Source: a virus. Taken from it: a DNA stretch of 60,405 bases. A program made the position numbers and the translations under genes. Under the pieces are notes generated by a model that saw only the letters and a list, made by a program, of their open reading frames with translations, made no database searches and was not told where the DNA came from. The stretch lies in IMG/VR virus record IMGVR_UViG_3300047157_000114, positions 1-60,405 of that record. One strand, given 5' to 3'. The first letter of the stretch is position 1. Each line of letters starts with the position of its first letter. Positions 6,442 to 57,881 of the stretch are shown here, piece by piece.

Positions 6442-7213
6442 AAAGATTATTGAGAAGCTAAGAGACGACAAGCATTACTACGGGAAATTTGGAAAACAAT
6501 GGCTATCTAACTCAGACATCAAGGTATTGAGGGATAATCCAGAGGCGTTTCATTTGCCAGTAAAATCTAACGAGAACTTAGAGAAGGGAAGATTATTTCA
6601 CCAACTTATTCTTGAGCCAGATAAGGCGAAAGACTTTTTAATTGCAGATGTATCCAGGAGAGATGCTACTTATAAAAAGTTTTTGGAAGACAACAAGGTA
6701 GACTTCGCTTTAAAGACATCAGAGGCAGATGAGATTAAAGAGCTAGTCGAGTGGTTTATGAATGAGAACAACAACAAGGTTAAGTTTATGAAGGATTACC
6801 TTTTAGATTTTGATGCTAAATATGAGGAGCCACTTATTGGTGAAATCATGGGACATGGTTTTAAGGGGAAGTGTGATTGTATAAGCAAGGGAATGGTAAT
6901 AGATCTAAAGACTTCTGGGGATGTCGCTAAGTTTACCAGAAATGCACCTTACTACTATTACGATACACAATCGTATATATATCAAACCTTGTCAGGTATG
7001 CCTATGGTATTTTTTGTAATAGGAAAAACCAAAAAGCCTATCGGAACAAAACCAGGCACAATGACTTATGATGTCGGTATATTTAATCCAACTCCTGAAA
7101 CAATTGCGAGAGCAAAGGAGAAGGTGGAACAAGCATTGTATCACTACGATAAATATTTTGCAAAAGGTGCAGAGGAAAGTATCGAGGATATAATTTTTAA
7201 AGGAGAATTTTAA
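6431..7213 (+). CDS. RecE/Cas4-like PD-(D/E)XK exonuclease
   Basis: 260 residues. Motifs in order are GRLFH (residues 53-57), the metal-binding KCDC (148-150), DLK (158-160) and QSYIYQ (180-185), the arrangement of the PDDEXK-like exodeoxyribonuclease VIII family. It probably degrades one strand of dsDNA ends to feed the annealing protein encoded just upstream. All core residues are present, so it looks active. Confidence 0.85.
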   Translation: MENKKIIEKLRDDKHYYGKFGKQWLSNSDIKVLRDNPEAFHLPVKSNENLEKGRLFHQLILEPDKAKDFLIADVSRRDATYKKFLEDNKVDFALKTSEADEIKELVEWFMNENNNKVKFMKDYLLDFDAKYEEPLIGEIMGHGFKGKCDCISKGMVIDLKTSGDVAKFTRNAPYYYYDTQSYIYQTLSGMPMVFFVIGKTKKPIGTKPGTMTYDVGIFNPTPETIARAKEKVEQALYHYDKYFAKGAEESIEDIIFKGEF

Positions 7214-7228
7214 TTTAATATATAATCT

Positions 7229-7480
7229 ATGAGTACAACTAAATACAAACACAAAGAAGGAAGAGGTTCACTTTTCAAAAATAGTTACAAAGAAAAGGAT
7301 ACCCAACCGGATTTAAAGGGAACAATGACTGACCTAGATGGTAAAGAGTTTGAGATTTCTGCATGGGAGGGAACTACCCAAGCAGGAGACTACAAGCTAT
7401 CCATTCAAGTTAGTACACCCTATGTAAAAACAGGAGATAAAGCAGATAAGTCTGAGGAAAAGGACAATCTGCCTTTCTAG
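7229..7480 (+). CDS. SSB-like protein with acidic DNLPF tail
   Basis: 83 residues. KGTMTDLDGKEFEISAWEG and GDYKLSIQVSTPYV are short beta strands of an OB-fold type. The Lys/Asp-rich linker ends in KDNLPF, like the DDIPF tip by which bacterial SSB recruits replication proteins. Its position between the exonuclease and the primase-helicase supports a role in coating ssDNA. It is shorter than canonical SSB, so it belongs to a small phage family or is a partial OB protein. Confidence 0.6.
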   Translation: MSTTKYKHKEGRGSLFKNSYKEKDTQPDLKGTMTDLDGKEFEISAWEGTTQAGDYKLSIQVSTPYVKTGDKADKSEEKDNLPF

Positions 7481-7504
7481 TTTTAAAATTAATTTTAATG
7501 TTAA

Positions 7505-7557
7505 GGTGGGAGGAATCGTTTTTTTTCATATTATTAGTCATCCTCCCATCTTTTTTT
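7505..7557 (+). terminator. Rho-independent terminator
   Basis: GGTGGGAGGA (7505-7514) pairs with TCCTCCCATC (7541-7550), then seven T residues. It separates the recombination operon from the primase-helicase gene. Confidence 0.8.
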
Positions 7558-7576
7558 AATCAAATAAAATCAAATC

Positions 7577-10000
7577 ATGCCTCACATAGTAACAATATTT
7601 CAGAACATAAGAGAAACAGAAACGCCATTTATAAAAGATGTAACATACATCTTACAAAGAATTAAGAATGGAAAGAACCAGGACTTAGTAAAAAAAATTA
7701 GAGCTGAAAAGGATAAGAGTAAAAGAAATGATCTAAAGAAAAACCTACCAGCTATATGCTTCTCGGGTGAATTTAAAAAGAGAGCAGACTCATCAATAGA
7801 AAACCATAGTGGACTTATATGCCTAGACTTTGATGGCTACAAAAAGAAAAAGGATATGTTGGAAGACAAGGAGAACTTCCAAAACAATAAGTTTGTTTAT
7901 TCTGTATTTGTCTCTCCATCAGGTAATGGTTTAAAGGTTTTAATTAAGATACCAGCAGAGCCAGAGAACCACACCAAGTATTTCAACTCACTTAAAAAAG
8001 AGTTCAACTCTTCTTATTTTGACGCCACATCTAAAAATATATCCAGGGTATGTTACGAGTCGTATGATCGTTTACTATTTATAAACGAGACATCATCTGT
8101 TTGGGAGAAGATTGAGGAGGAGGAGTATGAAGAGAGAAGTGTTATTAAAGATGTACCTGTTCTAAAGATTACAAGCGAGAATAAGATTATAGAGATACTA
8201 ACTAAGTGGCACCAGAACAAATACCCAATGGTTGAGGGACAGCGCAACCACAACTTATACATACTTGCTATGGCGTTGAATGAGTTTGGTGTTAGTAAAA
8301 ACATAGCCTCGTTTGTGTGTTCGCAGTATGAGTCATCAGGCTTTAGTAAAGTAGAGATACAAACCACGATTGATTCAGCATACAGAAACACCGCAGATTT
8401 TAACACTAAGTTCTATGAAGATACTGAAACCATCAATGATATAAAGCAAAGAATCAAAAGGGGAGATTCAAAAAAAGACATACGAAGAGATTTACAAGAA
8501 ACTAATTTAAAAATCGATGACATTGAGGCCGTTATCGACAAAGCAGAGGAGCAGGAAGATGAGCATTTCTGGACTAAAAACGAGAAGGGTACCATTAAGA
8601 TTGTTCCTTTGCTTTTTAAAAGATTCTTAGAGGACAATGGCTTTTATAAGTATTGTCCAGAGGGTGGGAAGAACTATGTGTTTGTAAAGGTTACCAATAA
8701 TCTTATAGACCATACAAGCGAGAAGGAGATAAAAGATTTTATACTTGACAAGCTATACCATTTCGAGGATGTATCGATATACAATTACTTTGCAGAACAA
8801 ACCAGGTTTTTTCGTGAAGAGTTTTTAACTCTGCTTGGTACTATTGATATATATTTTATAGCGGATACTAAGGATTCATCCTATTTATATTACAGGAACT
8901 GCGCAGTACAAGTTAAGAAGGACGAGGTAATAGACATTGACTATGTAGATTTAGGAGGGTATGTATGGAAAGATCATGTCATAGATAGAGTTTATAAAAG
9001 ATGTGAGCAAGTTGATTGTGATTACAAGAAGTTTATTGAAAACATAAGCGCTAACAATCCTGTCAGAACAGAGTCAATGCAGTCAACGATAGGATTTCTA
9101 ATGCATGGTCACAAGAACTTATCGTATTGTCCTGCGGTAATACTTAATGATGAGGTTATCTCTGACAATCCAGAGGGAGGAACAGGTAAGGGAATCTTTA
9201 TGAATGCTCTGAGTCACATGAAAAAGCTAGTGACTATCGATGGCAAGGCTTTTGATTTCTCTAAATCATTTGCTTATCAATTAGTATCAGCAGATACTCA
9301 GATACTTTGCTTTGATGATGTAAAGAAATACTTTGACTTTGAAAGATTGTTTAGTGTAGTGACTGAAGGATTAACTCTTGAGAAAAAGAATAAAGATGCA
9401 ATAAAAATTCCATTCAGCAAGAGTCCTAAGATTTCCATCACGACAAATTATGCAATTAAAGGGGCGGGTAATTCATTTCAAAGAAGGAAGTGGGAGCTAG
9501 AGCTTCACCAACATTACAACAAAAACTATACACCACAAGATGAGTTTGGTAGATTGTTCTTTGGAGATTGGGATGATGATGAGTGGTGTGTGTTTGATAA
9601 CTATATGATACAATGCATTCAACTTTACCTAAATAAAGGCTTAATACAGAGTGAGTTTGTTAATTTAAAGATTAGACAACTCTCTGCCGAGACGAGTCAT
9701 GATTTTATAGAGTGGTGTGGATTGCTTGAGGGTGCAGAGCCAAACCTAAAAATAGCACCAGATATAACTATACATTTAAACGAGGTGTATTTTGATTTTA
9801 TAAATGAGTATCCTGACTACGGGCCAAAGTCTAAGATGACTATAAGCAGACAGAGGTTTTACAAATGGATTAATGCTTATTGTGTTTACAAAACCGGAGA
9901 GAAACCACAAGAGGGTAGAGACCTTGTAGGAAAGTGGATAGTTATTAGCGATAAAGAGGAAGAAAAAGACGAGGATGAATCAAATTATATACCATTTTGA
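7577..10000 (+). CDS. Primase-helicase (BT4734-like primase, SF3-type ATPase)
   Basis: 807 residues. Residues ~55-180 match the BT4734/VirE-type N-terminal primase domain (AICFSGEFKKRADSSIENHS, LICLDFDGYKKK, VFVSPSGNGLKVLIKIP). Residues ~215-275 form a primase C-terminal helical region. Residues ~500-690 form a phage SF3/DUF5906-like helicase: Walker A EGGTGKG near 533-540, Walker B ILCFDDV near 576-582, then ISITTNYAIKG and a QRRKWELELH arginine motif. It would prime and unwind DNA at the fork. No phage polymerase is seen, so host polymerase is presumably used. The leader repeats ATCAAAT, a motif shared with several late genes. Confidence 0.87.
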   Translation: MPHIVTIFQNIRETETPFIKDVTYILQRIKNGKNQDLVKKIRAEKDKSKRNDLKKNLPAICFSGEFKKRADSSIENHSGLICLDFDGYKKKKDMLEDKENFQNNKFVYSVFVSPSGNGLKVLIKIPAEPENHTKYFNSLKKEFNSSYFDATSKNISRVCYESYDRLLFINETSSVWEKIEEEEYEERSVIKDVPVLKITSENKIIEILTKWHQNKYPMVEGQRNHNLYILAMALNEFGVSKNIASFVCSQYESSGFSKVEIQTTIDSAYRNTADFNTKFYEDTETINDIKQRIKRGDSKKDIRRDLQETNLKIDDIEAVIDKAEEQEDEHFWTKNEKGTIKIVPLLFKRFLEDNGFYKYCPEGGKNYVFVKVTNNLIDHTSEKEIKDFILDKLYHFEDVSIYNYFAEQTRFFREEFLTLLGTIDIYFIADTKDSSYLYYRNCAVQVKKDEVIDIDYVDLGGYVWKDHVIDRVYKRCEQVDCDYKKFIENISANNPVRTESMQSTIGFLMHGHKNLSYCPAVILNDEVISDNPEGGTGKGIFMNALSHMKKLVTIDGKAFDFSKSFAYQLVSADTQILCFDDVKKYFDFERLFSVVTEGLTLEKKNKDAIKIPFSKSPKISITTNYAIKGAGNSFQRRKWELELHQHYNKNYTPQDEFGRLFFGDWDDDEWCVFDNYMIQCIQLYLNKGLIQSEFVNLKIRQLSAETSHDFIEWCGLLEGAEPNLKIAPDITIHLNEVYFDFINEYPDYGPKSKMTISRQRFYKWINAYCVYKTGEKPQEGRDLVGKWIVISDKEEEKDEDESNYIPF

Positions 10001-12935: not shown

Positions 12936-15900
12936 AATCTAGCTTTCTTTTTAAAGCTCTTAGTCTAGCCTCTGCACTACCAGGCCCATATAATTTTTTG
13001 TAAAGCTTTGGATTTAATTTTCTAAGCTCAGACTTAGACAACTCACTTTGTTTTTGTTTATATTCTTTATTACGTTTAGCATTAATAATCCTTCTTACAT
13101 CTTTATAGAATGGAAGAAGACCGGCGTTACCAGAAATATCTAAAAGCATATTAGCAGTCAACTCATCTTCAGCTCTTTGTTTTGCTGATTCTGTTTTTCT
13201 AGTTTGAGTTCTTTGAGCTAGTTCAAAATTTCTTTCAGCTCTTCTTAAAATTGTACCATAAGGACCAGCAAAAAGTGTCGCTAAATTAGTCATTAAGTTT
13301 TCTGATTCTAAATCTTTTTTACCAAGTTGAGAATAAACAATAGAATGCTTGAACGAATCATACTCTTCATCGCTTCTTAATCCTCCTAAATTGTTTTCAT
13401 TAAATCTTTCAAGACCATAAGCTATTGCAGCGAAAGGAACATTACCCATAGTCTGCCTCGTTAAGAGTGTAAGTATTGACCCAGTTAAAGATCTTTTAGT
13501 TTCATCAACAAGTTCTTGCACTTCATCAATATCATCATCATCTTTTTCTCTAAATGCCTGGTCCACATTATCACTCAATACTTTATATATTATTTGATAC
13601 ATTGACATTCTAAGGGTTATCCCCAGCAACAAGCCTAGTGCTTGTTTTTCACTTATAGCTCCTTCATTAAACAAAGCGTTTACAGCAGTTCTAGCTGTTG
13701 TGTATTCAAATGCAAAAAAGTTAGACATAAAAGCATTTGCTTCCCTATATATTTCCTGAAATGCTCCAGCATCTTTTTTTCTTTTAAATTTTTCTATGGC
13801 TAATATTGGATTACGTGAAGTTGTAGACATAATAGCTTGCTTGTCAGCAGCAATTGCAGCTTTATTTATAGCCTCTGCATACTCTTGGCTTAAATATTTA
13901 GACTCTCCAGGACCTTTAGCCATATCTCTTATATCATCCTCAGTCAATCTTATCTCTGTTTCCTGTTCAAACACCCTCACAAACTCACCTAAGTATAAAG
14001 GTCTTCCTATCATTTGGTCTGGATAAGAAAGTATTTTATTAGATAACTCAGCTGTAAAATTCCTTAATTGTTTTGGACCGTAATTATTTATTTGTAATAA
14101 TATGCTTTTTAATTGTGGAGCAGCCTTCCCTGATTTACTAACGTATTTATCTACACCTAAATCATCTGTTAATTTACCTGTAATCTCATCTACATTAGCT
14201 AATTTAGTTGCCTCTGTTGAGCCTATGTTGCTTAGAAAATTCAACATAGTTCCATTTTCTTTTACTACACCTCCGTAGTTTTTAATACCATCCAATGTAG
14301 CGTCAGGGTTTGCAGATATAGCAAACAAAAAGTTTGATGATAATTCCGCCACTGCTCTTGGAGCAGAAACTAATGCAGCCTCGTAACCAATTCTTCTTAT
14401 TTCATTTATAAGAGTAGTAGTTGCTGATGGGTCAGAGTTTATAGAATCAAAAGTTGACGCCAATGCTTTCTCCATTGATCTTTCTAAAGCTATAACTGCT
14501 TGTTGTTGTAAAGGAGTTAATCCTTCTGTTTTCTTTAAAGAATTTATTTTCATTCTAAATTTTCTTATTTCATTAGTCATATTGAAATCTAATAAAATAT
14601 CATCCGTAGCTTTCATAAGAGCATAAGAAGGGTCAAAGCTTAATGCTTTTGCTCCAGGAATTCTTTCTTCTATTGACCCTGATTTAGCAGAAGCTTTTTG
14701 TGTAAACTTATCTCTTTGCGCATTGTATACAGCTTCTTTATCACTTGGGTTATATAATACCACGTGTTTCACGTAGTTATTAAAAAGGTTTACTTTGTTT
14801 CTTCTAAGAACTGCAGAAACAAAATCTGTTTTATCAGCTAGATTATCAAAAGCCTTACGGTATTCATCTACTGCTTTATTTATATTAGTTGAAAAAGAAT
14901 TTTTAAGTTTACCTAAATCAATCTTTCCGTTAACAGTAAATTCTTTTTTTATTTCCTGTAACATTTCTACTGTAACATCAGCTTCAGCTGGTGAATTTTC
15001 TATATAATAATTAATTGTTTCTTCAATAAAAGCAAGCGCAGGTGGTGTTAAGTTCTGTTCTTGATTGCTTTCAATAGGGTTTGATTCATGCTCTAACTGT
15101 AAAAGATAGGTCATGATTTTCATTTTATCTTTTATAATTTCATTTTGAGATCTTTCAATTCTTTTATTACCATCAAATGCAATTAATTTTTCAATTTTTT
15201 CAATTGACTCTTTTAGCACATTACTTCTCTGTACATCATACTGTGAAAACGCAGCAGCTAAAGGTCTAATTAACTTCTCAAATATTGTTGTGTCATTTGC
15301 ATTTCCCATCAAATCATCAAACACTGTTTTGGGATTTGATTTAAACACAGCTTCAAAAAAGTTTCCTGTTTTTATTAAACCAAGGGCTCTTCCAATATTA
15401 AAAAAGGATTTTCTTAAACCTCCTTGCAAACCTTTAGTTGAAATTTTTTCAACTTTAGGCACTACTGATTTAGTATCTTTTCTTGTTTCTATTGTATTTA
15501 TTATATCGTTAGCAGCTGCAGGAACAAACCCTGCGTTTATATTTTTTTTAATTAACTCTAGTTGATTTAATTTTCTTACATCTTGCGTGCCATCTTCAGT
15601 TTCTTCTATAAGTAAATCTAAATCTGCATCAGACAATCTTTTTATTTTAGTAGCTAAATCACGTGAAGCTTTATCAAGTGTAGGGTTTATTTTTACCGGC
15701 ATAGAAAGTATATCAGTCTTTAGTTTATCAACATCCACTTGTTCAACTTCAGTATCTCCCGCCTCCTCTATCTCTTTATTTATACCATCTATTAATTCAT
15801 TATATAAAGCGTCGGCTTTTTTCTTTATCTCTCTGACCTCTGGAAGATCCAAAAGAACAGCCTTTCTTTGCCCTATCAGTTTTGCTAGCTCATTATACCT

Positions 15901-21300: not shown

Positions 21301-21708
21301 TTATATTTTTTTAATCATTTCGTGTGTATAACTATCTCCCTTTACATATCCAAGGTCTTCGTAAGTTTGAATTAAACCATCGTGTCTTAGCAAGGCGTAG
21401 ATATATCCACCGTTTTTAGAACATATATTTGTTAATGTACTTACTAAAAATTTAACTGCCTCGTGTCTCAATGCTTTATCTTCTATTTTATTATCCGATA
21501 TAATCCAATCTACCCAACTAACCTTTGAGTTTGTAACATAAGTAAATCCTGCGCAAACAGGCTTACCATCTAACATTACCATTAATCCGCCTTCTCCATT
21601 CTCTGGTAAAAAATCTTTAGCTGGCGCTTGCCAACCCCAATCTTTCCACCACCCTACCAATACATCTTCATAATCAGATGGATTTAATTTCCTTATACTA
21701 AACTCCAT
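21301..21708 (-). CDS. GNAT-like acetyltransferase
   Basis: 135 residues beginning MEFSIRKLNPSDYEDVLVGW. It has the GNAT layout: N-terminal RKLNPSDYEDV, a central GLMVMLDGKPVCAGFTYVTN beta hairpin, KVSWVDWIISD, a helix and a C-terminal DGLIQTYEDLGYVKGDSYTH. Proteins of this type are common beside structural genes of marine phages. The substrate is unknown and the acetyl-CoA loop is weak. Confidence 0.6.
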   Translation of the reverse strand: MEFSIRKLNPSDYEDVLVGWWKDWGWQAPAKDFLPENGEGGLMVMLDGKPVCAGFTYVTNSKVSWVDWIISDNKIEDKALRHEAVKFLVSTLTNICSKNGGYIYALLRHDGLIQTYEDLGYVKGDSYTHEMIKKI

Positions 21709-21730: not shown

Positions 21731-23487
21731 TTACGGATAGCTTTTCATTACTTCGGATTCAACTGCAAAGAGTTCAGTGGATTTAGTGCTTTCATTTATT
21801 AAAGTAAATATACAATAGTGACCAAGTAAACCGTGAGATTCTGCAACTGAACTTTTAATATAAAGTATATAAGCATCTTGAATTGTTATCGGTCGATAGT
21901 TCCAGTATACTTGTATCAATTGATTCTGATTTATTCCAGCTGGTATATCTACGTTTAATGTTTGTTATTTGTCCAGCTAAACTAATTGTTGTATAGCTTG
22001 GTAAAGAAAAATATAAATAATCACCAATACTTACAATGCTTCCTATATCTACCAGTGGGTTAGTAGAGAAATTAATTGTTGTGGTATTTCCTATTGCTGA
22101 TACACTTGTAGATTTTCCTATACCATTTGCTGACCTCATTGCGTATTGTCCCGGTAAAGCTGGAACTTCTCCGTTTTGTCTTAAGAATGCAAAGTAAGCA
22201 CCTTCTTTTTCTTTAAACCAAGCACTTTCAATAAATCCGTTTTGTTGTATATCGGTTTCTAAATTTGCTTGCCATGCCTGATCTGATTCTAAATTAATAG
22301 TTTTAAATATTTTATTCTCAAGAGGATTCTGATTAAACACTGTTGTTATTTGAGAATTATATTGCTCTCCATAAAAATTATTTCTATTTCCATTTGCATT
22401 ATGTTGGTAATAGATTACCTCCATTAAATGAATAAAAGTATTGATTCATACCAAGCATATAATCAGGTATGTATGAATAAAAAGATGGCCACCCTTTAGA
22501 GGTTTGGCTATATGTTAAAGTATATTCCGTTTCTACAGGTGAAGGTATTGGAGGAACAACACTAGTCGGAATAGGTGCTGTAGGAGTCGGCGTTGGAGTT
22601 GGAGTAGCTGTAGGAGTCGGCGTTGGAGTTGGTGTAGGAGGCCCTGGCGTTGGGCTAGGTGTTGGAGTTGGTGTTGTTGGAATACAAGGCCCAATAAAAA
22701 CAACATTACCGTTACCGCTTGTTAAAATAGGAACACTTAAACCACAAACTGGTATTGAATCACCATCTGGAACAAACTCTGTTTGGGGGTTACTACTACA
22801 GTCTGTGTAACTAAAGTTACCACCACCAGCACCACCTTCGAGTTCATATTGATTACAACCACTTGGTGTGGGAGTTGGTGTGGGAGGTGGGGTAGGAGTA
22901 GGTGTTGGATTAGCTATTAAACAAGTATCACAGTCTGCATACACGTTAAGATAATCGTTATTATTTGCCGGTGATGCTGTTTCATCTATTTCATAACATC
23001 TACCATCTGGCATTTCTATTATATCTCCTGGAAATACACCACTTGCAAATGTTGTTCTAACACTACTATATAATGTGCCTCCTCCTCCTGGACAGGCAGT
23101 AAGCGTAAAATAATTGTAACCCGCTGGAACTGGAGTTGGGGTCGGCGTTAACGTCGGAACAGGAGTAGAACTAGGTGTGGGTGTAGGGGCTCCAGGAGTT
23201 GGGCTAGGTGTTGGCGTCGGAGTAGCTGTCGGAGTAGCTGTTGGAGTTGAAGTGGGCACTGCAGGGATATCGCCACAATCAGAAGAACATTCTTCAAATG
23301 CGCTTGAGGCTGAACCAGATAAAGATGTTACAGTGACTGTCCCTTGATTGTCTACACAAGCATCAACAATACTGTCAGGCTGCATAGTGTAACTAACTGT
23401 TTGTCCTCCACAACAATCGATTTCAAATGTACACTCATCTCCTATTGCTCCTATAGGACAAGATAATATATAAATTTCACAAGCCAT
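21731..23487 (-). CDS. C-terminal half of split crAss-like stabilization protein with PT-linked modules
   Basis: ATG 23487 starts a Cys-rich module (CEIYILSCPIGAIGDECTF), then Thr-Pro linkers, a second module (YNYFTLTACPGGGG...[11 protein letters not shown]...CDTC), a linker, a third ([20 protein letters not shown]) and a long (TP)n tract. The chain continues as TLTYSQTSKGWPSFYSYIPD, which is the C-terminal region of crAss-like stabilization proteins. A frameshift near 22415 leads into RNNFYGEQYNSQITTVFNQN and KIFKTINLESDQAWQANLET; another near 21905 leads to the end, VESEVMKSYP. The N-terminal half of this protein family is encoded 4 kb upstream. The half has its own -7 box. Confidence 0.72.
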
Positions 23488-23503
23488 CCGCTAAATATTT
23501 TTA

Positions 23504-23511
23504 CAAATTTA
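23504..23511 (-). promoter_or_regulatory. -7 box for the C-terminal half ORF
   Basis: Read on the minus strand this is TAAATTTG, matching TAnnTTTG, 16 bases before the ATG at 23487. It suggests the C-terminal half is transcribed on its own. Confidence 0.5.
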
Positions 23512-23546
23512 CGAATTTAAATGCAATGTCTTTTATCTCGCTTTTT

Positions 23547-25835
23547 TCAATTAAAAGAATTAAAAATTTTTGATTTAGGTATTTCCCAAATCCAATTTTT
23601 ATTATCTTCTAACCCTCCGCTCATTACTACATTATCACCTTTAGTAAACCATCTTGTGATAAAAAACAGAGCATATCCTATTTTCGCTGGTATTAATGGT
23701 TTATAGCTTACATCTATTATGTTTAGTTCTTTATCTAATTTTACAGCGTAATGATTGTATGTTCTATCATTATATATTTTTGTATGAACTAAATAGATAT
23801 AACATTGTTGTTCTTCAAACCAAATTGGTTGCGTTGAACCACCTACTTTTACTTTGGCACTAAAATATAATTCATCTTCAGGAAATTTATTATTGAATTT
23901 ATTTTCAACATCAATTATTTTTTCAAATTCAAAATTACCTTTATCTATATAAACAACAAAATTAGGAGATGTATTATATATAAAATGTAAAACATTATTA
24001 TGAATAAAGAATAACCAATTTTTCTCCCACATTACTTCATCACCAACACCAAAACGCATTCTATTAGGCTCTTCTACATCTATATCTTTTATAAAACGAT
24101 AATGTTTATCTAATAATCCTATTCTTGTATTCCAATTTTCATCAATGTATGCTACTGAGTGATACATTTTCTTTTTATATATGAATGATCTATAGTCTTC
24201 AAATTTAGCTATTTGATTGTATGTAATTTCTTTTTCACTATAATCAATTAATTTTAAATTTTTATCAAATTTAAATTCATATAGTGTTCTACAATCACCT
24301 AATTTTTTCATAAATTCAGTTCTTGCTGTATCTCTATCTACACGTGCTACACCTTTATAGCCTTTAGATATTGGTATTAAAGATAAATTGTGTGAACAAT
24401 ATTCAGTTTCTATAATTTGTAAATCATTTTGTTTACTTGTTCTCCAAGTTCCTTCAAACATGTGCGTTATATATATATCATCATCATTTATTTCAAATGG
24501 ATTATTAAATTTTTTAGCATTAGAATGCGATTGATTACTGCCAAATCTATTTATTGATAATAGTTGTGATTTATTTTTATTTATATCGTTCTCGAAATTA
24601 TGTTCTCTACCAAAATAATCTAAGATATGTTTTGTAAATCTACCTGGTCCTGTATTTTGTAATACACCATTTTTTGGATTTGCAATTATATCATTTATTA
24701 ATTTTGATAATGCTGGATGTTTAGGTTTAGTTGCTATAAACCAATTACACACACTTACGTAGTTATCATTTATTTTATCTACTATATCATCAAATATTCC
24801 TAATGATGTATTTGCTTCTAAACCAACAACTAAATCCTGATGTTCAATAAAGTTGTCTAAGGGTTGGTTACAATAAACATCAGTGTCAGCATATACACCT
24901 CCATTTTCATACAAATAACAATACCTAAAGAAATCACTTTTTTCACCTCGTTCAGTTAATGTTTTATAAGCATCATTGTATATAGAATTAGTAAACCAAT
25001 TATCGACTGCGTTTTGATTAAAATAAAGAAAGTTATAATAGGGGTTTTTTTCTTTAAATGAATCAATCATGTAATCATTAACATCTAAAATATCATAAGA
25101 TGTATAAATAAAATTATGAGGTATCAAACGAAATATTTTATCTTCTTGCACATAATCCCAAAACTTTTTATTACCAATAGATTCCATTTCTTGTAATTTA
25201 CCTGGATACTCTACGTGCAATATATCCTTGCCTTCATGACTAACATATTTTGTTCTGCCAAAATCATGCTTTAAAACATATAAATTACCTAATTGTCCTA
25301 TTTCATAATCTGTCTCTTCTTCTCTATTATATGCTTTGTTTACACATTTACCTAATAATGCTGGCCCTGTATAATCTAAATAAAACATTTCTTGTTTGTC
25401 TTTACAGTGCTTTACAATTCTATCAATACATTCTTTTAATAAAGGATTTTGAGGTACAGTACCTATAAAAGCATTACCTAACCATTTATAAGCCATAGGA
25501 TCATCTCGTGTAGCTATAAAATAATTATCACTCAATATCCAATTATTTAATGGTAGCTCACATATTGTGTCAGCGTCTATATATACACCACCTTCAATAT
25601 ACAATACACAATATCGCCACAAGTCCGCTTTAAAAGCACCAGGTATTAAAGTAAGGTATGCTTGTAATACATCTTTACTAAAATGTTTTTTAATAAATTG
25701 TACTCTATCATTTTTATCAAAAAAATAATATTCCCAATCAGGATTTTTTATTTTCCAACTTAAACAAGCTTTACTCATACCCTCAGGTAATTGAGTGGTT
25801 TCAAATGTTTGAAATATTTTTTTAGGTATCAACAT
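23547..25835 (-). CDS. GT32-GT32-beta-propeller fusion glycosyltransferase
   Basis: 762 residues in three parts. Residues ~1-215 form a GT32 (OCH1/capsular type) transferase: IPKKIFQTFETTQLPEG, DLWRYCVLYIEGGVYIDADT with DAD at 87-89. Residues ~235-455 form a second GT32 unit: IPHNFIYTSYDILDVNDY, SDFFRYCYLYENGGVYADTD with DTD at 317-319, then NTGPGRFTKHIL. The last ~290 residues have repeated Trp/Tyr blades (YHSVAYIDENWNTRIGLLDK, NVVMSGGLEDNKNWIW) like the five-bladed propellers of glycoside-phosphorylase relatives. Both DxD motifs are intact. It lies between the two halves of the PT-rich virion protein and overlaps the GT60 gene end, so it probably extends a glycan started by GT60. Confidence 0.82.
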   Translation of the reverse strand: MLIPKKIFQTFETTQLPEGMSKACLSWKIKNPDWEYYFFDKNDRVQFIKKHFSKDVLQAYLTLIPGAFKADLWRYCVLYIEGGVYIDADTICELPLNNWILSDNYFIATRDDPMAYKWLGNAFIGTVPQNPLLKECIDRIVKHCKDKQEMFYLDYTGPALLGKCVNKAYNREEETDYEIGQLGNLYVLKHDFGRTKYVSHEGKDILHVEYPGKLQEMESIGNKKFWDYVQEDKIFRLIPHNFIYTSYDILDVNDYMIDSFKEKNPYYNFLYFNQNAVDNWFTNSIYNDAYKTLTERGEKSDFFRYCYLYENGGVYADTDVYCNQPLDNFIEHQDLVVGLEANTSLGIFDDIVDKINDNYVSVCNWFIATKPKHPALSKLINDIIANPKNGVLQNTGPGRFTKHILDYFGREHNFENDINKNKSQLLSINRFGSNQSHSNAKKFNNPFEINDDDIYITHMFEGTWRTSKQNDLQIIETEYCSHNLSLIPISKGYKGVARVDRDTARTEFMKKLGDCRTLYEFKFDKNLKLIDYSEKEITYNQIAKFEDYRSFIYKKKMYHSVAYIDENWNTRIGLLDKHYRFIKDIDVEEPNRMRFGVGDEVMWEKNWLFFIHNNVLHFIYNTSPNFVVYIDKGNFEFEKIIDVENKFNNKFPEDELYFSAKVKVGGSTQPIWFEEQQCYIYLVHTKIYNDRTYNHYAVKLDKELNIIDVSYKPLIPAKIGYALFFITRWFTKGDNVVMSGGLEDNKNWIWEIPKSKIFNSFN

Positions 25836-27061
25836 TAAACAGGAATGTCTAATCGTTCAGCCCACCCATTAGATGCTGAATGTGCCCAAACAATTATATT
25901 GGTTGGTTTTTTAGTATTTGATTCTACTGGAATATTAAAATTATTTTTATTTTTTATTAATTGATTTAAATGGGTTATGTCTTTTCTCCATAATTCTTTT
26001 TTCTGTTCATCTTCAAATATTATAGCGCAAAAAGTATAATCATTATATTGGAATTGATTACCATGTAAATTTAATATGTGATTGAATTTGAGATGATACT
26101 GTTCATTCTTTATACCTAATGTTGGTATTTCATTATTTAAACATGATTGTCTAATAGCCCTATCCCTAAACCTAATTCCGCTATATTCTTCGTAATCCTG
26201 AAGCGTTCTTTCTTTACCAAGACCATAGACTCCAAAATGTTTTTCATTACAAGGAGAACAAACTTCACCATCTACTCCTAAGAGCTGTCTTACTCTGTTA
26301 TGTGTGTGTGTATTTTTTTTTACCCAAGTTGTATCGTCGTCCCAATGTTTTGTTCTACCTGTTCTGGTGTACTCGTGATAAGCAATTATTTCATTTGGAT
26401 GAAATAAATCATACCCATGTGTAAAAGACCTAACAGCAAGAGTTATTTCTTCACCGTGAAAGTAAAAAGAAGGATCATGCTGAACTTCTTCTGCGTGCTT
26501 ACCTGTTGTAAAAGCAAAATGTGCTGAAAAAAATCTTGCTGGTAAAGGTTTGCTTGTGTCTTCAATTGTATAAGGAAGGAAAAACACTACACCTTCAGGC
26601 GTAAATCTATCAAATTTCATTCCCCAAACATCAGCGTTATTTTTAATGTTAAAATTATTTGGGTCGTATGCTGTTGCGTAAGTAGTAAGCAATGGCTTTT
26701 TATGCCCTGCTTCTTGCAGATTCTCATACATTTTAATCAACTTAACATCCCAATGTTTTACAAATCTGTGATGACTATCAAGTTGTAATGTATATTTTTC
26801 ATTATTATATTCTTGCTGTATTAAATTACGCGCCCAACAAGCACCATTTGTTTCAGTATAAGGTATGTCTAATATTTTTACCCTTTTGTCTTTTTTATAT
26901 TTACCTAAATCATCCCACTTATCTTCTGTTGAATGTTGCCAAGCAACACATACTATTATATTATTAGGAAATTTTGCGTTGTCAAATAATGAATTTAAGG
27001 TAGGTACTAATTCTGGGTCACGGTAAGATGCAATTTGGATGAATATACTATTTTCCGACAT
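25835..27061 (-). CDS. GT60 polypeptide GlcNAc-transferase (PF11397-type)
   Basis: 408 residues. It follows the GlcNAc-transferase (GT60) pattern almost throughout: IFIQIASYRDPELVPTLNSL, YTETNGACWARNLIQQEY, TLQLDSHHRFVKHWDVKL with the DSH metal motif at 95-97, LLTTYATAYDP, FYFHGEEITLAVRSFTHGYD, IAYHEYTRTGR, and GLGKERTLQDYEEYSG. In eukaryotes GT60 enzymes attach alpha-GlcNAc to Thr in Thr/Pro-rich mucin-like proteins or to hydroxyproline of Skp1. Here the gene is flanked by two ORFs with (TP)n linkers, the expected kind of acceptor. Nucleotide sugar would come from the host. The ORF is intact. Confidence 0.88.
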   Translation of the reverse strand: MSENSIFIQIASYRDPELVPTLNSLFDNAKFPNNIIVCVAWQHSTEDKWDDLGKYKKDKRVKILDIPYTETNGACWARNLIQQEYNNEKYTLQLDSHHRFVKHWDVKLIKMYENLQEAGHKKPLLTTYATAYDPNNFNIKNNADVWGMKFDRFTPEGVVFFLPYTIEDTSKPLPARFFSAHFAFTTGKHAEEVQHDPSFYFHGEEITLAVRSFTHGYDLFHPNEIIAYHEYTRTGRTKHWDDDTTWVKKNTHTHNRVRQLLGVDGEVCSPCNEKHFGVYGLGKERTLQDYEEYSGIRFRDRAIRQSCLNNEIPTLGIKNEQYHLKFNHILNLHGNQFQYNDYTFCAIIFEDEQKKELWRKDITHLNQLIKNKNNFNIPVESNTKKPTNIIVWAHSASNGWAERLDIPV

Positions 27062-27126
27062 GAGTAATCTATTGGATTAAATTAAATTTAATTAAAGTTA
27101 TTAATTATAAACCAATTAAAAAAATA

Positions 27127-27570
27127 TTAAATATTGTAAAGGTTTTTTAGATTGGCAATTTTTTCTGATAACCATTCATATTGCAGCATATCATAAGCTT
27201 CTTGATGCCACTTTATGTTTGCTTGAGGTGTTAATATTTTTAAATTATTTATTTCTTTATACCCCTTTAATTTATTTGACACAAAAACATCTAGAAAATA
27301 TCGGTTTGGTTTAATACCACACATGACAGTAAATTGATTTATTATATGACCTCCCCATGAATGACCTCCATTTATATCTAATTTAAATCCTAACTCACAA
27401 ACCAAATCTACAGATTCAGGAGTAATACTTATATCTATCCAGTGTTTGTCATAATGTTCTATGTAACCATTATAATGTTTAGACCAGCCGCCTAAAACAA
27501 TTACATTGCCATTTAAATGTTTATTGACTTTATGTATAAACTCTTTTGTTTTTACGGACATGATGGACAA
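27127..27570 (-). CDS. Possible nucleotidyltransferase-fold protein (147 aa)
   Basis: Begins [40 protein letters not shown] followed by [20 protein letters not shown] recalls the GG...DxD opening of minimal nucleotidyltransferases, and [12 protein letters not shown] could give the third carboxylate. Its start overlaps the end of the N-terminal stabilization ORF by about 19 bases, so it is translated with it. A role in activating a sugar or modifying a glycan is a guess from the context. Confidence 0.45.
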
Positions 27571-30500
27571 GATGTTGGTCCTGCTGTTTTTACACCATTG
27601 AAAAATTCATAATAAGTAGAACCATCCTCTGACACGAAGATTGTACCTCTATCAAGCTCTGTACAACCTAAACCTGAATACAGTCTGGTTGCTGAAGCTA
27701 CACTGTTAGCGTTAAAGTATTTAATACCGCTGCTGTCTGGAGGCGCACAACAACCATTATAAAGGCCTGCGGAGAAACCTACTTCAATTGCAATACAAGC
27801 ACCAGGCGTAGGCGTAGGCGTTGGACTAGGCGTTGGACTAGGAGTCGGAGTCGGTGTTGGGCCTAGCGTTGGACTCGGTGTCGGTGTCGGAGTAGGAGTC
27901 GGAGTAGGGCCCTCAGGCGTCGGTGTCGGAGTAGGAGTCGGTGCTCCAGGAGTTGGAGTAGGAGTCGGTGCTCCAGGAGTTGGAGTTGGACTCGGTGTCG
28001 GACTCGGTGTAGGTGTAGGTGTTCGTGTAGGCAATACAGGTGGAGTTGGAGTTGGTGTAGGTGGTGGAGTAGTACATGAATTACAATCTGTATATTCTGC
28101 ATTTGCAAGCGTACCTAACGTTCCGGTAGGGTCAACAATTTCATAACAATTTCCATCAGGCATTAATAATACAGTATAAGTTGGGAATGTGTTTGCAAGT
28201 GCTCTACCCACAGTATAATTATTAAACCCACCATCACATCTTGTTATTGTATAGTTATCATAAGATATACCTGGTGTTGGTGTTGGTGTTGGTGCTCCAG
28301 GAGTCGGTGTTGGTGCTCCAGGAGTAGGGCTCGGTGTAGGTGTTGGTGTAACACAAGGTCCTACAAGCGTAACAGTACCACCACCACTTGTTACAGTAGG
28401 CACCCCTAATGCACATACTGATGCTGAATCACCAGCATCTACACTTTCTGTTTGTGATGCACCACTACAATCAGTATAACTAAAGTTACCAACTAAACCT
28501 GACGCTGCTTCTAAATCCCATTCATTACAACCTCCAGGCGTCGGGGTTGGTGTTGGAGTTGGCGTTGGTGTTGGAGTAGGGTTAGTAGCTATACAAGTAT
28601 CACAATCTGGGTAAACATTAGTATAGTCATTAGCGTTTACAGTTGAACTAGTTTCATCTATCTCGTAACATCTACCGTCAGCCATTAATACTATATCGCC
28701 CGGAGCGTTTCCACTAGCGTCTGCTACTCTAACATTAATATAGTTAGCACTACCTTGTCCTGGACACATTGTAACAGTATAATAATTAAATGCAAAGGTT
28801 GGTGTTGGTGTTGGCGGAGGTGTAGGCGTTGGGCCAACCGGAGTAACTGTTGGTGTCGGAGTTACAGTCGGACTACAACTTACTCCTGTGTCACTTGCAC
28901 TACCACCGTTTACTGAAGGTGTTGTTCCGTTTAAAACACATACGTCAATATCATAATCTGCAGGCAATATTCCTGTCTGAGTGTTTCCATCACAATCAGT
29001 ATATGAGTAATTGCAACCACCAGTTCCACTTGGACAAGCCAATATCCACTCAGTACAAGATGGTGTCGGTGTCGGTGTGGGAGTCGCAGTAGGAACTGGA
29101 GTCTGAGTCGGCGTCGGACCGGGTGTAGGCGTTGGACTCGGTGTAGGTGTAGGTGTTGGGGTAGCAGATGCACATAAAGCACAATCTGTATAAGTTTCTA
29201 CTATATCTACTGTACTAGTTGAACCTGTTACTGAAGGACTTTCATAACAAACGCCACTATGCTTTACGACAGGATCAAATGTACCTCCTGAAACCAGCCT
29301 AAATACTTGAGTGCTTCCGCCTCCACACTGAGTATACTCTCTATAATCATACACAATAGGTGTCGGAGTTGGGGTCGGTGTTGGTGTTACAGTTGGAGTC
29401 GGTGTTACAGTTGGACTCGGTGTTACAGTTGGAACTGGAGTTGGTGTAGGCGTTGGTGTACCAGTAGACCTATAATCCCATACTAAATATAAAATACTTC
29501 CGCTTGCTGGCATTATGAAATCTGCCGAATAAATTGTAGGAGCGCCAACACTAGATATTGGTGCTGCATCTATTGCTAAAGAAAGTAAACTTGTAATATC
29601 TGTTACATTATTTTGATAAAATGTGTTTGTTCTTAAATATTTAAATTTATCCACTGAAGGGTTAAATACAAAATCATCAAAATTAATTTTGTTTGAATTT
29701 ATAGTAACCGTAGAACCGTCAACTGGGAAAACTCCACTACCCTGCGACCCTGAAAATAACTGGTATTGAGAGATAGCAAAAGAAGCAGATGTGCTTGTAA
29801 ATTCCACTAAATTAGATTCATTAGGTGAAACCGTAACTCCGTCAGTCCAACTAAATTCGTTGTGTATAAATTCTCCAGCTTCAAGTGGATCAGTTACACA
29901 AATGTTATATATGTTTAAAGCATCTGCTCTTGGACAACTTACACTTATTTGAATAGTATCATTTTGATTTGAATCAGAACTTACAACTATGGTAACCTCT
30001 TGTATATTTGGAACATTTTTATCAAATGTAAAACTGCCAGATTTTTTAACAGAACCAGATGTATATGTTACACCTTTATAGATTGCTTTAATTGTATAAC
30101 TGACTTGAGAAATAGAACCCTCTGTAATTAATTGAACTCCAGACTCGTCTGTCATTAGAACATTAGTTTCGCTTTCAATATCTTGTTCTCCTTCTTTTGG
30201 AATTACATAACTAACAGTCACCAATCCTGTTTGTTCTGTTACATCTACGCAATACACAAAGTCTTGATTAGCTATTACTGTTATATCTTGTGTAACACCA
30301 CACGCTAAACAAACTGGTATTTCAGGTTTTAATATTGTATTTGAAGTTAAAACATACTCATCCATGTAAGGGTCGTATCCTCCTAATTTTTGAGTGGTAA
30401 ATGCTCCGGTAAATAAATCTCTAAACCAGCTTCTCATACCAGTATCCGATATAACAATAAGTCTTTCATCTGAAAAAGATCCTCCCAACAATTGAATCAC

Positions 30501-30830
30501 AGCTCCTCTTTTAACATCAGTAAAATATTTGTTTTCACCCCAAGCCACAAAACTTTCTGGGTTATTACTAATACCATAGTTTTCTATACGAGCAATTTGA
30601 TTACCTAATACTTCTGGAACAGAAGCTACTAAACCACCGCCAGTAGAATCAGATATAATATTTTTAGATGCTAATACGTATGACACTTTGTCTTCTTGTA
30701 AAACAAGTATATCAGTTCTTCTACCATATAATATTTCAACATCTCCATAACTTTCTTCTAGCGGTTTGAAATTCGCTAAACCTAAATTAAATTCATTTAA
30801 TTTATTAACATTACTTTCATCATTAAACAC
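27552..30830 (-). CDS. N-terminal half of split stabilization protein: hub part plus PT-linked Cys modules
   Basis: Largest open part (1,092 aa) of the gene that begins at 34092. Its first ~190 residues match crAss-like stabilization proteins: [86 protein letters not shown] and [13 protein letters not shown]. Ig-like strands follow (~200-470). From about residue 480 come (TP)n linkers alternating with at least six small Cys-containing modules (such as [20 protein letters not shown] and [20 protein letters not shown]). It ends with CSC-type residues TSCPSCP and lacks the family's normal C-terminus, which is found in the 23487 ORF instead. Confidence 0.78.
27790..29475 (-). repeat. Thr-Pro codon repeat tracts joining Cys-rich modules
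   Basis: Long tracts of ACN-CCN codons (seen on the + strand as GGNGTN) encode (TP)n linkers, often with SPTP or GAPTP variants, separated by modules of 50-80 residues. Related tracts lie at 22560-22680, 22860-22915 and 23130-23260 in the second half ORF. Their similarity makes the region prone to recombination or slippage and to assembly collapse. Confidence 0.85.
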
Positions 30831-33800
30831 CCCACTATAAGTTAAATCAGCAAACCTGTGAGCTTCTTTATATTCTACGTTAGAAGTTGTGAATACTCTA
30901 TTACCTAAATTAAATGATTTACCAGTTAAAGAGTCTCTTATTTTATAACTTTCTACACCATTACCAAAAGCAAAACAATTAAAAAAATTCTGTATTAACT
31001 ACTCCAGCAATACCTGAAGATATATCTTGATTTGTAATATTTCCACTATGGTTTCCTAATGAATCAATAGAAAATGATTTATTATTTTCATACCAAACGT
31101 CTGGTAAAGCTTCTTGTGGTTCAGTTTCAAAAACAATCACAGAGTCTCTTCTATAAACTGTAAAATTTATTGAAGACGTAGAAGCTCCATCGAAGTTATT
31201 ATTTCTACACGCTCTTGTTCCGCTAACTAAAATTGAATATGTATTATCGTTTGTATTTTGATAAAATCTATAATAGTTATTTAATAATAAATCACCACTA
31301 GTTGTTGGGCTGTTTGATTGTCCTCCAAAAACTGTCAGTAAATGCGCTTCAGTACCATTACTTACAGCAGCTCCTGTGGTTAACGCATCACCAACTCCTG
31401 TATATAAGCCAGATATAACTATATTATTAACCGGGTCTGCCGGATTTCCTGAAAAGGTAATTGCTTGGTTTTCAATTACATTTGCAATGTTTTCGCCAAC
31501 AAACCAAGCATACATATCTGTATAAGTATTGTCTGATATAAATGTTTTTTCTAAAACACTAGTTCTTTCTTCACACTTCCCACCTATTCCTCTTCTTACT
31601 TGCTCTATTTTCATTTCAATCCTAGACCCTATAGGAACATTATAATTAGTATTTGTTGTTACAGGAGGAGTTGCTGTGTCTGTTTCTGAAGTATAAAATT
31701 TATAATAAGCTACTGGATAGCGGTCTCTTTTAATAGCAGCGGCTCTAACTAAACCAAAATTTATAATATCTAATGCACTTTCCGCAGCTGAAAAATCAGA
31801 TGTAGACATTTTCATATAAGTTCCACCGGGCACAGGATTTCCGCTAGTAGGTTTTATAAAGTCTGCAGACTCTGTGGTTTTCTCTAAAACAGTAGCATAT
31901 ATACAAGCTTGTCATAGGATTCCATCAAGAATCTCTTTTTACAATTAATCTATCGCCTGTCTTCTACTTTACGCTATATTATCTCCTTCTAATAATAAGA
32001 TAAGAATTTGTTAGAATTTGGGTCTTCAAAGTAAATATGATGAGTATATAGTTTCATAATCTCCTCTATCTGGTTTTAAACACAAACTTATATCTTGTTG
32101 CCCAAGCTAGGTGCTCTTTGACTCACTGGTATAGTTGCTATGATTTCGTTCTTAGTTGCTAGACCTTGAGCAAGGTACATTTACTGTGTTGTTATGTACT
32201 AACTAAAGCAGTAGTTGCTCTATTATATTCATCCATGTAAACTACTCCTAGCTCATATCCTCTGTTACTATGCAAGCTTTCTGTGATTTGCTGATTGTTC
32301 TAATTGTAACACTTACTGATGTAATGTCAATTATAAGAGACAATTAGGTTCGTTGCTACTGGAGCGGTTTCTGATATATTGAGCAGCATGGAAATATTAA
32401 ACCCAATTGTCTGTTCCGCTAACTAAAGAACGCTTATTGGTTCTCCTTTATGCTGGAGGGTTTGTGCTTGAGCAGTTAATACCAGTTTGATTTATATGCA
32501 TAGTCATGATAGGTACCGGTACCTAATGCTCCCTAATAATGTAAAATTAAAATACATCAGTTCAGTGTAGATCCATAACCCATTTTGTGCGTCTGCTACA
32601 GTTTGTATTGACGTCAATTGTTAACCCTATTTTTGCTTGAAAATCTGAGCTGTTAAATAAATCAGCTACACGTTGCATAATTGTCTAGTTAAAGTGTATA
32701 TTAAAACTTAATTATTGTGCTCTCCCTGCTGTTGCGTCAGGTAGAATTTGTCACCGTAAAATTACAAAGCATGTTGATAAGTAATAAAATCAAGATTCAT
32801 ATTAGCATATCCTGAAACTAATGAACTTATCTAGGTTATCCGCCTAAAATCAAATTTAATATCCCGCAGTTTGCATTAAGTTGAAATAACACCAAATGCT
32901 TCGTAAGAAATAGGATACTAAATTTGATGTGGTCAGCGCCTCACCTCCAAGATTTTGAGCATTTGAATTCAAGTTGTATAATTTAAATTTAAGAGGCGAC
33001 TCCATTTATATCTATTAAGTTATAACCTTCCGTATAATTTCCGTATATTAAGTCTATTACCCATTAATGTTTGAGACTTTAGCTTTTCTCGGTACATTAT
33101 CATATAATCTTAGATATTTCGTACTTTCAGGAAGAACAGTAAATATTTTACTGTTTGTAAAAACATAAGTTGCATTAGTGTTATGTGGTCCTAATGGTGA
33201 TTTTTTTATTCTTTCAATTATTTTTATAGTAGGATCGTTTGCTTCTTTAAATAATAAATCTATTCCAACTACTAATGAACTTCCTGTGTTGTATGTAAGT
33301 TGTACTCCATTTCTTGGAGTTAACCATACCTTCATTTAAAAAACTATTTGAAGAAAAAGAGAAAATTTTTGGGTCAAAAGCAGGTTCACTAAACTGCGAA
33401 ATAGCTGAATATTCTGCGTTAGAATATTTATATCTGTATGCAAAACAAATAAAATTATCCTCTAAAAAAGAATCTTGTAAAGTAGTGCTTAATAAGTTTA
33501 AGTGTTGGAGCAGCAAGTGGCGGTTTTTTAATTACTAAAATTTCTTCATTGGTAAACTGATCTACATTATTGAATGGAACAGAATAATTAGAATCTAATA
33601 TTTAATTACTCTAGGAGCATTTAAATTATCAGTAAAAAACAATTAAATTATCTATTTTATCTACACCTATGTTATTAAAAAGTTTGGATTAAAATTTAAA
33701 GTAGTATTATACCATTTCCATCATTTATACTAATTACGTGATAAATAAGCTCTCCTGTTATTACATTATAAGAAACAATTAAATCTAATTTTCCAGTTGC

Positions 33801-34092
33801 TCCTACAGTAAATGCAGGGTCGTGAACAAACCAATAAATGGTTTCATTTGCACCATCTTCAAAAGCTCCTATACATCTAGCTGAGTTGCTTAGTGCAGTA
33901 CCGTCTATATATTGAAGTGAGTGTTAACCTGTGCGTATTACCCTTAGCATTTTCAACAGCCCCTATTTCTGATTCTTCAGTAGAACCAAGTCTAACATTC
34001 AAAGCATCTATATACTCTCCGTTTGGTATAAGCCTTTCGTCAAGGCTCTTATTCATACGCCCAGCTACAAAATTTCTTTGAATGTTTGCCAT
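30831..34092 (-). CDS. N-terminal part of stabilization protein, heavily frameshifted
   Basis: ATG 34092 starts [20 protein letters not shown] and [20 protein letters not shown], the hallmark N-terminus of crAss-like stabilization proteins. It continues in other frames: [16 protein letters not shown] and [17 protein letters not shown] (33890-33740), [30 protein letters not shown] (33470), [20 protein letters not shown] (33290), [13 protein letters not shown] (about 33020), then an open stretch 31833-30979 ([30 protein letters not shown]) and [19 protein letters not shown]. The 31.9-33.1 kb part is the most damaged of the genome. The frames run on into the ORF ending at 27552, giving a gene of roughly 2,180 codons. 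Confidence 0.7.
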
Positions 34093-57619: not shown

Positions 57620-57881
57620 TAGGATCTTTTATTTTTTTCATCCTGTCCGACTTTAAAAATCTTTTAAAATCTCGAGCTCCCACTTTATATCCAGCGTCCA
57701 AAAGGTCTAGCTTTAAATCAGCATCATTTATTTTTTTAGAAAAATCAACGCTTCCATCTGAATTAATAAAACAAAACCTATAGGTGTTATTTATCATAAC
57801 CATCTTTTCTGAAAGAAACTGTTTGTAGTCTTCATAATTTTCTAAAATATGATTATAATTTGTTAGTGATATATATTTCAT
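57606..57881 (-). CDS. Hypothetical protein between groEL and groES (91 aa)
   Basis: MKYISLTNYNHILENYEDYK, QFLSEKMVMINNTYRFCFIN then VDFSKKINDADLKLDLLDAG and RDFKRFLKSDRMKKI. Basic at the C-terminus. Overlaps the groEL stop by four bases (ATGA). No family recognised. Confidence 0.6.
   Translation of the reverse strand: MKYISLTNYNHILENYEDYKQFLSEKMVMINNTYRFCFINSDGSVDFSKKINDADLKLDLLDAGYKVGARDFKRFLKSDRMKKIKDPNAAF

Follow-up and report, generated by a model that had tools for sequence, protein, structure and literature searches.

Tail muzzle locus

We analyzed the 60.4-kb virus record IMGVR_UViG_3300047157_000114 of a marine bacteriophage (the whole stretch, of unknown completeness, is hereafter the window), in which genes for glycosyltransferases (GTs) lie between two halves of a tail muzzle gene that are rich in Thr-Pro (TP) linkers. 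The virus is related to crAss-like phages of flavobacteria: MW202828, the elemo phages of Flavobacterium, and the phi46:3 group of Cellulophaga phages (Pachyviridae). The tail muzzle region (34092-21855, minus strand) was recognized as crAss-like by a PF25729 match (E = 3.8e-21) and by a tail gene order matching that of elemo and Cellulophaga phages, while sequence searches for PDB relatives of the muzzle or of its MUZ_C domain gave no meaningful match. The open reading frames (ORFs) of the enzyme cassette were recovered on the minus strand where the preliminary description had placed them, within the following features:

30831..34092, minus strand: muzzle N-half gene, 5' part, frame-broken, in pieces 33877-34092, 33247-33516, 33057-33335, and 30979-31833
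27552..30830, minus strand: muzzle N-half gene, 3' part, presumed acceptor; matches phrog_14478 virion structural protein (E = 7e-47, amino acids 2-456)
27127..27570, minus strand: ORF of 147 amino acids, conserved in close relatives only (58-97% identity in L002-L006)
25835..27061, minus strand: GT60 glycosyltransferase (PF11397), presumed to place the first sugar onto Thr or hydroxyproline (Hyp)
23547..25835, minus strand: GT32-GT32-GH130-like propeller fusion (PF04488 twice, Och1 and GH130 matches), presumed to extend the glycan
22399..23487, minus strand: muzzle C-half gene, 5' part, presumed acceptor, with Cys-rich modules and (TP)n linkers; phrog_38031 spans the break
21855..22424, minus strand: crAss_MUZ_C domain (PF25729), 3' part of the muzzle C-half; frame break near 22409

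The muzzle is a single gene with the crAss_MUZ_C domain at its end in an elemo phage (L013), and two adjoining genes annotated as virion structural proteins in phi46:3 (L012); in the window and six close relatives, the enzyme cassette separates two muzzle genes, the N-half and the C-half. Of the TP-rich ORFs, 27552-30830 is the 3' end of the N-half, while 22399-23487 forms the start (5' end) of the C-half. The C-terminal region of the former consists of (TP)n linkers with small Cys-rich modules, and piece 30979-31833 of the N-half matches phrog_14478 virion structural protein as well. In an attempt to locate the TP arms within the muzzle solved by cryo-EM, the split point was found near the crAss_MUZ/MUZ_C boundary, at about residue 1240 of phi-crAss001 gp44, but could not be mapped to the tail tip.

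Jointly, the two TP-rich ORFs contain approximately 150 Pro residues in Pro-rich stretches, 70% of them preceded by Thr, and thereby present a Thr/Ser-Pro-rich presumed acceptor region of the kind known from mucin-type O-glycosylation. Among 120 random viral loci, no ORF contained five consecutive Thr/Ser-Pro, and the TP runs are therefore not a product of chance. The linkers of the window's group were among the most Thr-rich surveyed.

The muzzle N-half begins at 34092 in the window and is an uninterrupted single ORF of 2047-2222 amino acids in relatives L002-L007, and the broken muzzle ORFs are therefore peculiar to the window record. Likewise, 22399-23487 and 21855-22424 are one gene broken near 22409, where the window has an extra base relative to L002 and L003, and L002 has a single ORF (13575-15497). 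In total, 27552-34092 and 21735-23487 had approximately 90 frame-breaking indels of 1-2 bases against L002/L003; insertions predominated among those listed, mostly outside homopolymers, and the GT cassette, the ring gene, and the GNAT gene were essentially free of them. These indels probably arose as an artefact of the consensus where strains vary in sequence.

Directly after the muzzle C gene, a small acetyltransferase-like gene (21301-21708), kept in most close relatives and in MW202828, which lacks the linkers, may target a virion protein. Elsewhere in the window, a GroEL-like chaperonin is phage-encoded (57878-59473; phrog_5725, E = 9e-130).

Cassette enzymes

The product of 25835-27061 matched PF11397/GT60 with 255.7 bits (E = 1.2e-75; cut-off 21) and belongs to this family, with the DSH-containing motif LDSHHRF invariant across nine phage homologues. 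The product of 23547-25835 contains two PF04488/GT32 stretches with the DXD-type motifs YIDADT and YADTDV. Its first domain matched the mannosyltransferase Och1 (PDB 9n3s, E = 8e-18), and its C-terminal third, in a moderate-confidence model, had a fold match to GH130 mannoside phosphorylases, which are five-bladed propellers (Foldseek E = 4e-10), while PF04041 matched this part below the cut-off (E = 9e-4). PF11397, the two PF04488 stretches, and the GH130-like fold thus bear out the arrangement first described for this locus, in which ORFs with (TP)n linkers flank a GT60 and a GT32-GT32-propeller fusion. By Pfam, the window transferases are GT60 and GT32 enzymes, and not the GT27 polypeptide GalNAc-transferases of animal-type mucin O-glycosylation.

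The 147-amino-acid ORF (27127-27570) had been described as a possible nucleotidyltransferase. It had no Pfam family above cut-off, no NCBIfam family, and no meaningful PDB match, and its predicted model was poor (predicted local distance difference test, pLDDT, 47), with no fold search made on it; we therefore do not retain this role.

In L005 and L006, identity to the window was approximately 50% for the double GT32 protein and 81-93% for GT60, indicating that cassette genes are swapped singly. A gene of 228-230 amino acids is inserted between these two genes in L005, L006, L007, and L096, and was an FkbM-type methyltransferase in L005 and L096, the two members tested.

Slot enzymes and linkers in related phages

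We surveyed the 80 muzzle loci that best matched the window's alignment in a scan for the muzzle C-terminal domain, and scored linkers by the highest Pro count in any 30 residues of the muzzle region. This maximum was bimodal: 5-7 in 57 loci, at least 14 in 22, and 10 in a single borderline locus. Genes for GT60, GT32, prolyl 4-hydroxylase (P4H), or hydroxyproline-arabinosyltransferase-like (HPAT-like) enzymes lay upstream of the C-half in 22/22 Pro-rich loci vs. 0/57 linker-less loci, so that linkers and slot enzymes were concordant in 79 of 80 loci (Fisher 8e-19, kinship ignored). In linker-less loci, the slot mostly held one structural-type gene, while the slot genes of Pro-rich loci were mainly those of protein hydroxylation and O-glycosylation.

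Sister-phage slots were filled by P4H plus GT60, an HPAT-like enzyme, or GT32. The P4H is the first half of a fusion of two 2-oxoglutarate (2OG) oxygenases; this half matched solved prolyl 4-hydroxylases (PDB 5iax, E = 1.8e-22; Chlamydomonas 2jig/3gze; 5c5t, E = 1.5e-10) and has an invariant HxD...H...K signature. The HPAT-like proteins matched PF23452 at E = 5e-8 and 4e-8, a modest similarity that falls under threshold in some members, and a sequence search for PDB relatives of the HPAT-like protein found none that was meaningful. Pro-rich linkers are thus encoded beside transferases of families that act on Hyp (GT60 or PF23452). Other slot genes encoded O-FucT-like, carbamoyltransferase, FkbM methyltransferase, GDP-mannose dehydratase/epimerase, radical SAM, and YibB proteins. 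Of the 69 Pro-rich loci with slot enzymes, 48 encoded P4H. With P4H and HPAT as search seeds, we retrieved 107 new loci, 104 of which had a Pro-rich ORF, the other three being contigs shorter than 6 kb.

In L077, the muzzle slot also holds a radical SAM/SPASM protein (7077-7985) between P4H and a short GT60, with a homologue in L087 (7336-8244), possibly representing a further peptide or sugar modification.

Enzyme exchange and linker composition

A tree built from 119 muzzle C domains indicated repeated enzyme changes within the Pro-rich clade (at least 14 for GT60, 12 for HPAT, and 5 for P4H), with the linkers staying Pro-rich. GT60 and HPAT occurred together in 0 of 64 cases (hypergeometric 6e-9, and 2.7e-5 within P4H phages, kinship ignored), a mutual exclusion expected of interchangeable enzymes for one step.

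Linker composition varied with the transferase. The median share of Pro preceded by Ser or Thr was 74% with GT60 and 46% with HPAT, where Val-Pro was more frequent, and phages with P4H and GT32 had TPPTPP linkers with a median of 38% Pro-Pro. The Ser/Thr-Pro fraction was higher with GT60 than with HPAT in 10/10 path-independent sister pairs (p = 0.002), and transferase class still predicted linker composition once tree distance was accounted for (partial Mantel r = 0.28, p = 0.0005), while P4H presence did not (partial Mantel p = 0.09).

GT60 and Thr-Pro runs in other phage types

GT60 was encoded in 13 of 114 sampled IMG/VR (TP)n loci and in none of 120 control loci chosen by an arbitrary 15-mer (each set approximately 1.1 Mb), and just 2 of the 114 had the muzzle domain. 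Conversely, a (TP)4 DNA run occurred in 20/48 non-crAss GT60 records vs. 0/50 control records, the controls being shorter on average. Xanthomonas phage XacN1 has its GT60 gene grouped with genes for a carbamoyltransferase and YibB; GT9 and GT2-like genes are nearby, as is a 9.9-kb TP-rich ORF adjoining a baseplate gene. PF09612 (YibB/HtrL) genes stand beside or near GT60 in two phage types (L110, 9855-10610; L014, 17312-18952), and an ORF with a YibB-like N-terminus, as judged by eye, is near GT60 in a third (L009, 13453-14835). This family may act on the same glycan as GT60.

Acceptor residue and proposed pathway

From gene content, nesting, and covariation, we consider it likely that the cassette between the muzzle halves adds O-linked sugars to the Pro-rich linkers of the muzzle proteins whose genes flank it. 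The link between transferases and TP linkers drawn in the preliminary description passed the co-occurrence survey of relatives and two additional tests, enzyme swaps at the slot and linker composition tracking the transferase. Its proposal that the phage glycosylates its own tail-hub extensions gains support from the survey, with the correction that the carrier is the tail muzzle rather than a generic tail hub. The term mucin-like fits Thr-rich phages without P4H such as the window phage, and we limit it to these, given that the wider system is Pro-centred, with P4H and HPAT-like enzymes in the sister phages.

In the window phage, GT60 would add the first sugar (GlcNAc, by family) to hydroxyls of the (Thr-Pro)n linkers, most likely those of Thr, and the GT32-GT32-GH130-like protein would next lengthen the glycan in an Och1-like manner, perhaps with mannose. 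In sister phages, the dual 2OG oxygenase would convert linker Pro to Hyp through its P4H half, after which GT60, an HPAT-like enzyme, or GT32 would glycosylate Hyp. Further slot genes (O-FucT-like, carbamoyl- or methyltransferase, nucleotide-sugar epimerase) could decorate the glycan or provide its sugar. The tail muzzle would thereby bear an arm that is extended and glycosylated, where the glycan could give protection from proteases, stiffen the arm, or tune receptor contact.

The acceptor probably differs between phages. Some P4H phages have low-Thr linkers (VPAPSP in L045, poly-Pro in L239), which rules out Thr as a universal acceptor and argues for Pro, as Hyp, being the target there; in P4H phages generally the acceptor is probably Hyp. 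Sister phages encode the P4H expected of a Hyp O-glycosylation pathway, while the 60-kb window record had no match to PF13640 or a P4H profile, and Thr is therefore the likelier acceptor in the window phage. That the window acceptor is also Hyp, through a host P4H or one encoded outside the 60-kb record, seems possible but doubtful: the window is nested in a clade where P4H phages abound, one member of the GT60 family is the Hyp-specific Skp1 enzyme, and records may be incomplete, yet PF13640 had no matches either in the records, up to 58 kb long, of 20 relatives without P4H, and the linkers of the window's group are particularly Thr-rich.

More broadly, we moderately favor a scenario in which marine crAss-like phages build a Hyp-rich tail glycoprotein with their own P4H and interchangeable Hyp transferases inside the split substrate gene; in this scenario, the window phage derives from them, has lost the hydroxylase, and glycosylates Thr instead. 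Full-length P4H fusions or HPAT were found in 0 of 50,697 records of isolated phages. The P4H genes of Erwinia, Salmonella, and Microcystis phages were considered as independent cases and set aside, as their annotated neighbourhoods lacked a glycosylation cassette; phage P4H is therefore not always tied to one.

Weighing the evidence

Several points weigh against linker glycosylation by the cassette. The linker-composition tests were designed after the compositions had been seen. Sequence searches found no meaningful solved-structure relative of GT60, so that its sugar and acceptor rest on family annotation, and the lack of P4H in the window and 20 related records means that Hyp chemistry is not directly applicable to the window phage. 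No crAss-like relative carried the GT genes without a TP-rich virion protein, but 28/48 non-crAss GT60 records, many being fragments, had no (TP)4 run. Enzyme presence or absence changed only once on the 119-tip tree and is thus a single independent contrast; we dropped it as replicated evolutionary evidence and therefore give weight to enzyme swapping inside the clade and to phages of other types.

The intactness of the inner ORFs among indel-rich neighbours, to which the preliminary description had drawn attention, also counts for less than it seemed. The contrast itself held, with no frame-breaking indels against L002 in the three inner ORFs (one against L003, at the extreme 3' end of the double GT32 gene) vs. 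approximately 81 in the muzzle N-half; however, the neighbouring ring and GNAT genes were equally clean, and the contrast alone therefore says little about GT function. A better sign of constraint is the ratio of nonsynonymous to synonymous substitution rates (dN/dS), at 0.10-0.36 for GT60 and 0.07-0.33 for the double GT32 gene, which shows purifying selection on both transferases.

The muzzle gap could alternatively be a hot spot for accessory genes, whose transferases modify host surface glycans (superinfection exclusion or receptor change) or phage DNA. Slot content is indeed highly variable, and the GT32/Caps_synth and carbamoyl- and methyltransferase families also serve surface polysaccharide synthesis. 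However, linker-less relatives, in which the muzzle is still split, have no such genes (0/57), no obvious action on DNA or capsule suggests itself for P4H or HPAT-like genes, linker composition tracks the transferase, and other phage types show an enrichment of GT60 close to TP-rich proteins, all of which make this explanation improbable. We give equally little credence to Pro-rich linkers and glycosylation genes being linked but functionally separate adaptations of one clade, sharing a locus by descent, which would fit the single presence/absence event on the muzzle tree but not the repeated swaps with linker covariation inside the clade or the co-occurrence of GT60 and TP runs in unrelated phages.

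Comparison with known systems

A full-text literature search, with subscription papers and preprints largely outside its coverage, returned no phage Hyp-glycosylation system and no report of a phage encoding hydroxylase, transferases, and Pro-rich acceptor as one locus. If the Hyp scenario favored above holds true, it would be, by that search and to our knowledge, the first Hyp O-glycosylation pathway in bacteria or their viruses. In a Baltic Sea virome, prolyl 4-hydroxylase was among the abundant viral auxiliary genes, and its viral use "remains cryptic" (PMC9301287). Hyp-glycosylation could, if true, explain the abundance of these genes in marine viromes, and the loci described here make the question of viral P4H use directly testable. 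In addition, the covariation of linkers and transferases offers a naturally occurring data set on enzyme specificity, and the one-locus pairs of P4H and transferase could serve the production of defined Hyp- or Thr-Pro-glycoproteins in bacteria.

Among phages, mycobacteriophages encode transferases and have glycosylated virion proteins, according to Freeman et al. 2023 (cited in PMC12619734). The sites there are the C-termini of capsid and tail-tube subunits, in contrast to the muzzle linkers proposed for the window phage. The muzzle protein of phi-crAss001 is gp44 (PMC10172136). It is homologous to the muzzle described here and shares the PF25729 C-terminal domain, but gp44 is encoded by one unbroken gene without TP linkers or enzymes, whereas the window muzzle is split.

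The algal chlorovirus PBCV-1 has its own P4H, which is thought to act on viral proteins. Both this enzyme, whose structure (5c5t) is the one matched by the slot P4H at 1.5e-10, and the slot P4H are virus-encoded. We know of no linked Hyp-transferase cassette in PBCV-1, nor, in mycobacteriophage glycosylation, of a P4H, of TP linkers, or of enzyme genes nested within the gene of their substrate.

In plants, P4H and HPAT act on the Pro-rich repeats of hydroxyproline-rich glycoproteins such as extensins. The sister phages resemble this system in the Pro-rich repeat substrate, the P4H, and the HPAT family; however, extensins belong to the secretory pathway and cell wall, while the phage genes are nested in the locus of their presumed substrate and the HPAT similarity is modest (E of approximately 5e-8). 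The Skp1 system of Dictyostelium and Toxoplasma uses a cytoplasmic P4H followed by the GT60 enzyme Gnt1, and shares with the phages the pairing of P4H and GT60, the cytoplasmic setting, and a first sugar that is lengthened by more transferases. It modifies one Pro of a regulatory protein, whereas the phage substrates would be long Pro-rich repeats of a virion protein; moreover, the window lacks P4H, and sister phages have HPAT-like or GT32 genes in place of GT60. For the window phage itself, the closest model is provided by the mucin GlcNAc-transferases of trypanosomatids, eukaryotic Golgi enzymes of the GT60 family that act on Thr, with which it shares the combination of a GT60 and a Thr-Pro-rich acceptor.

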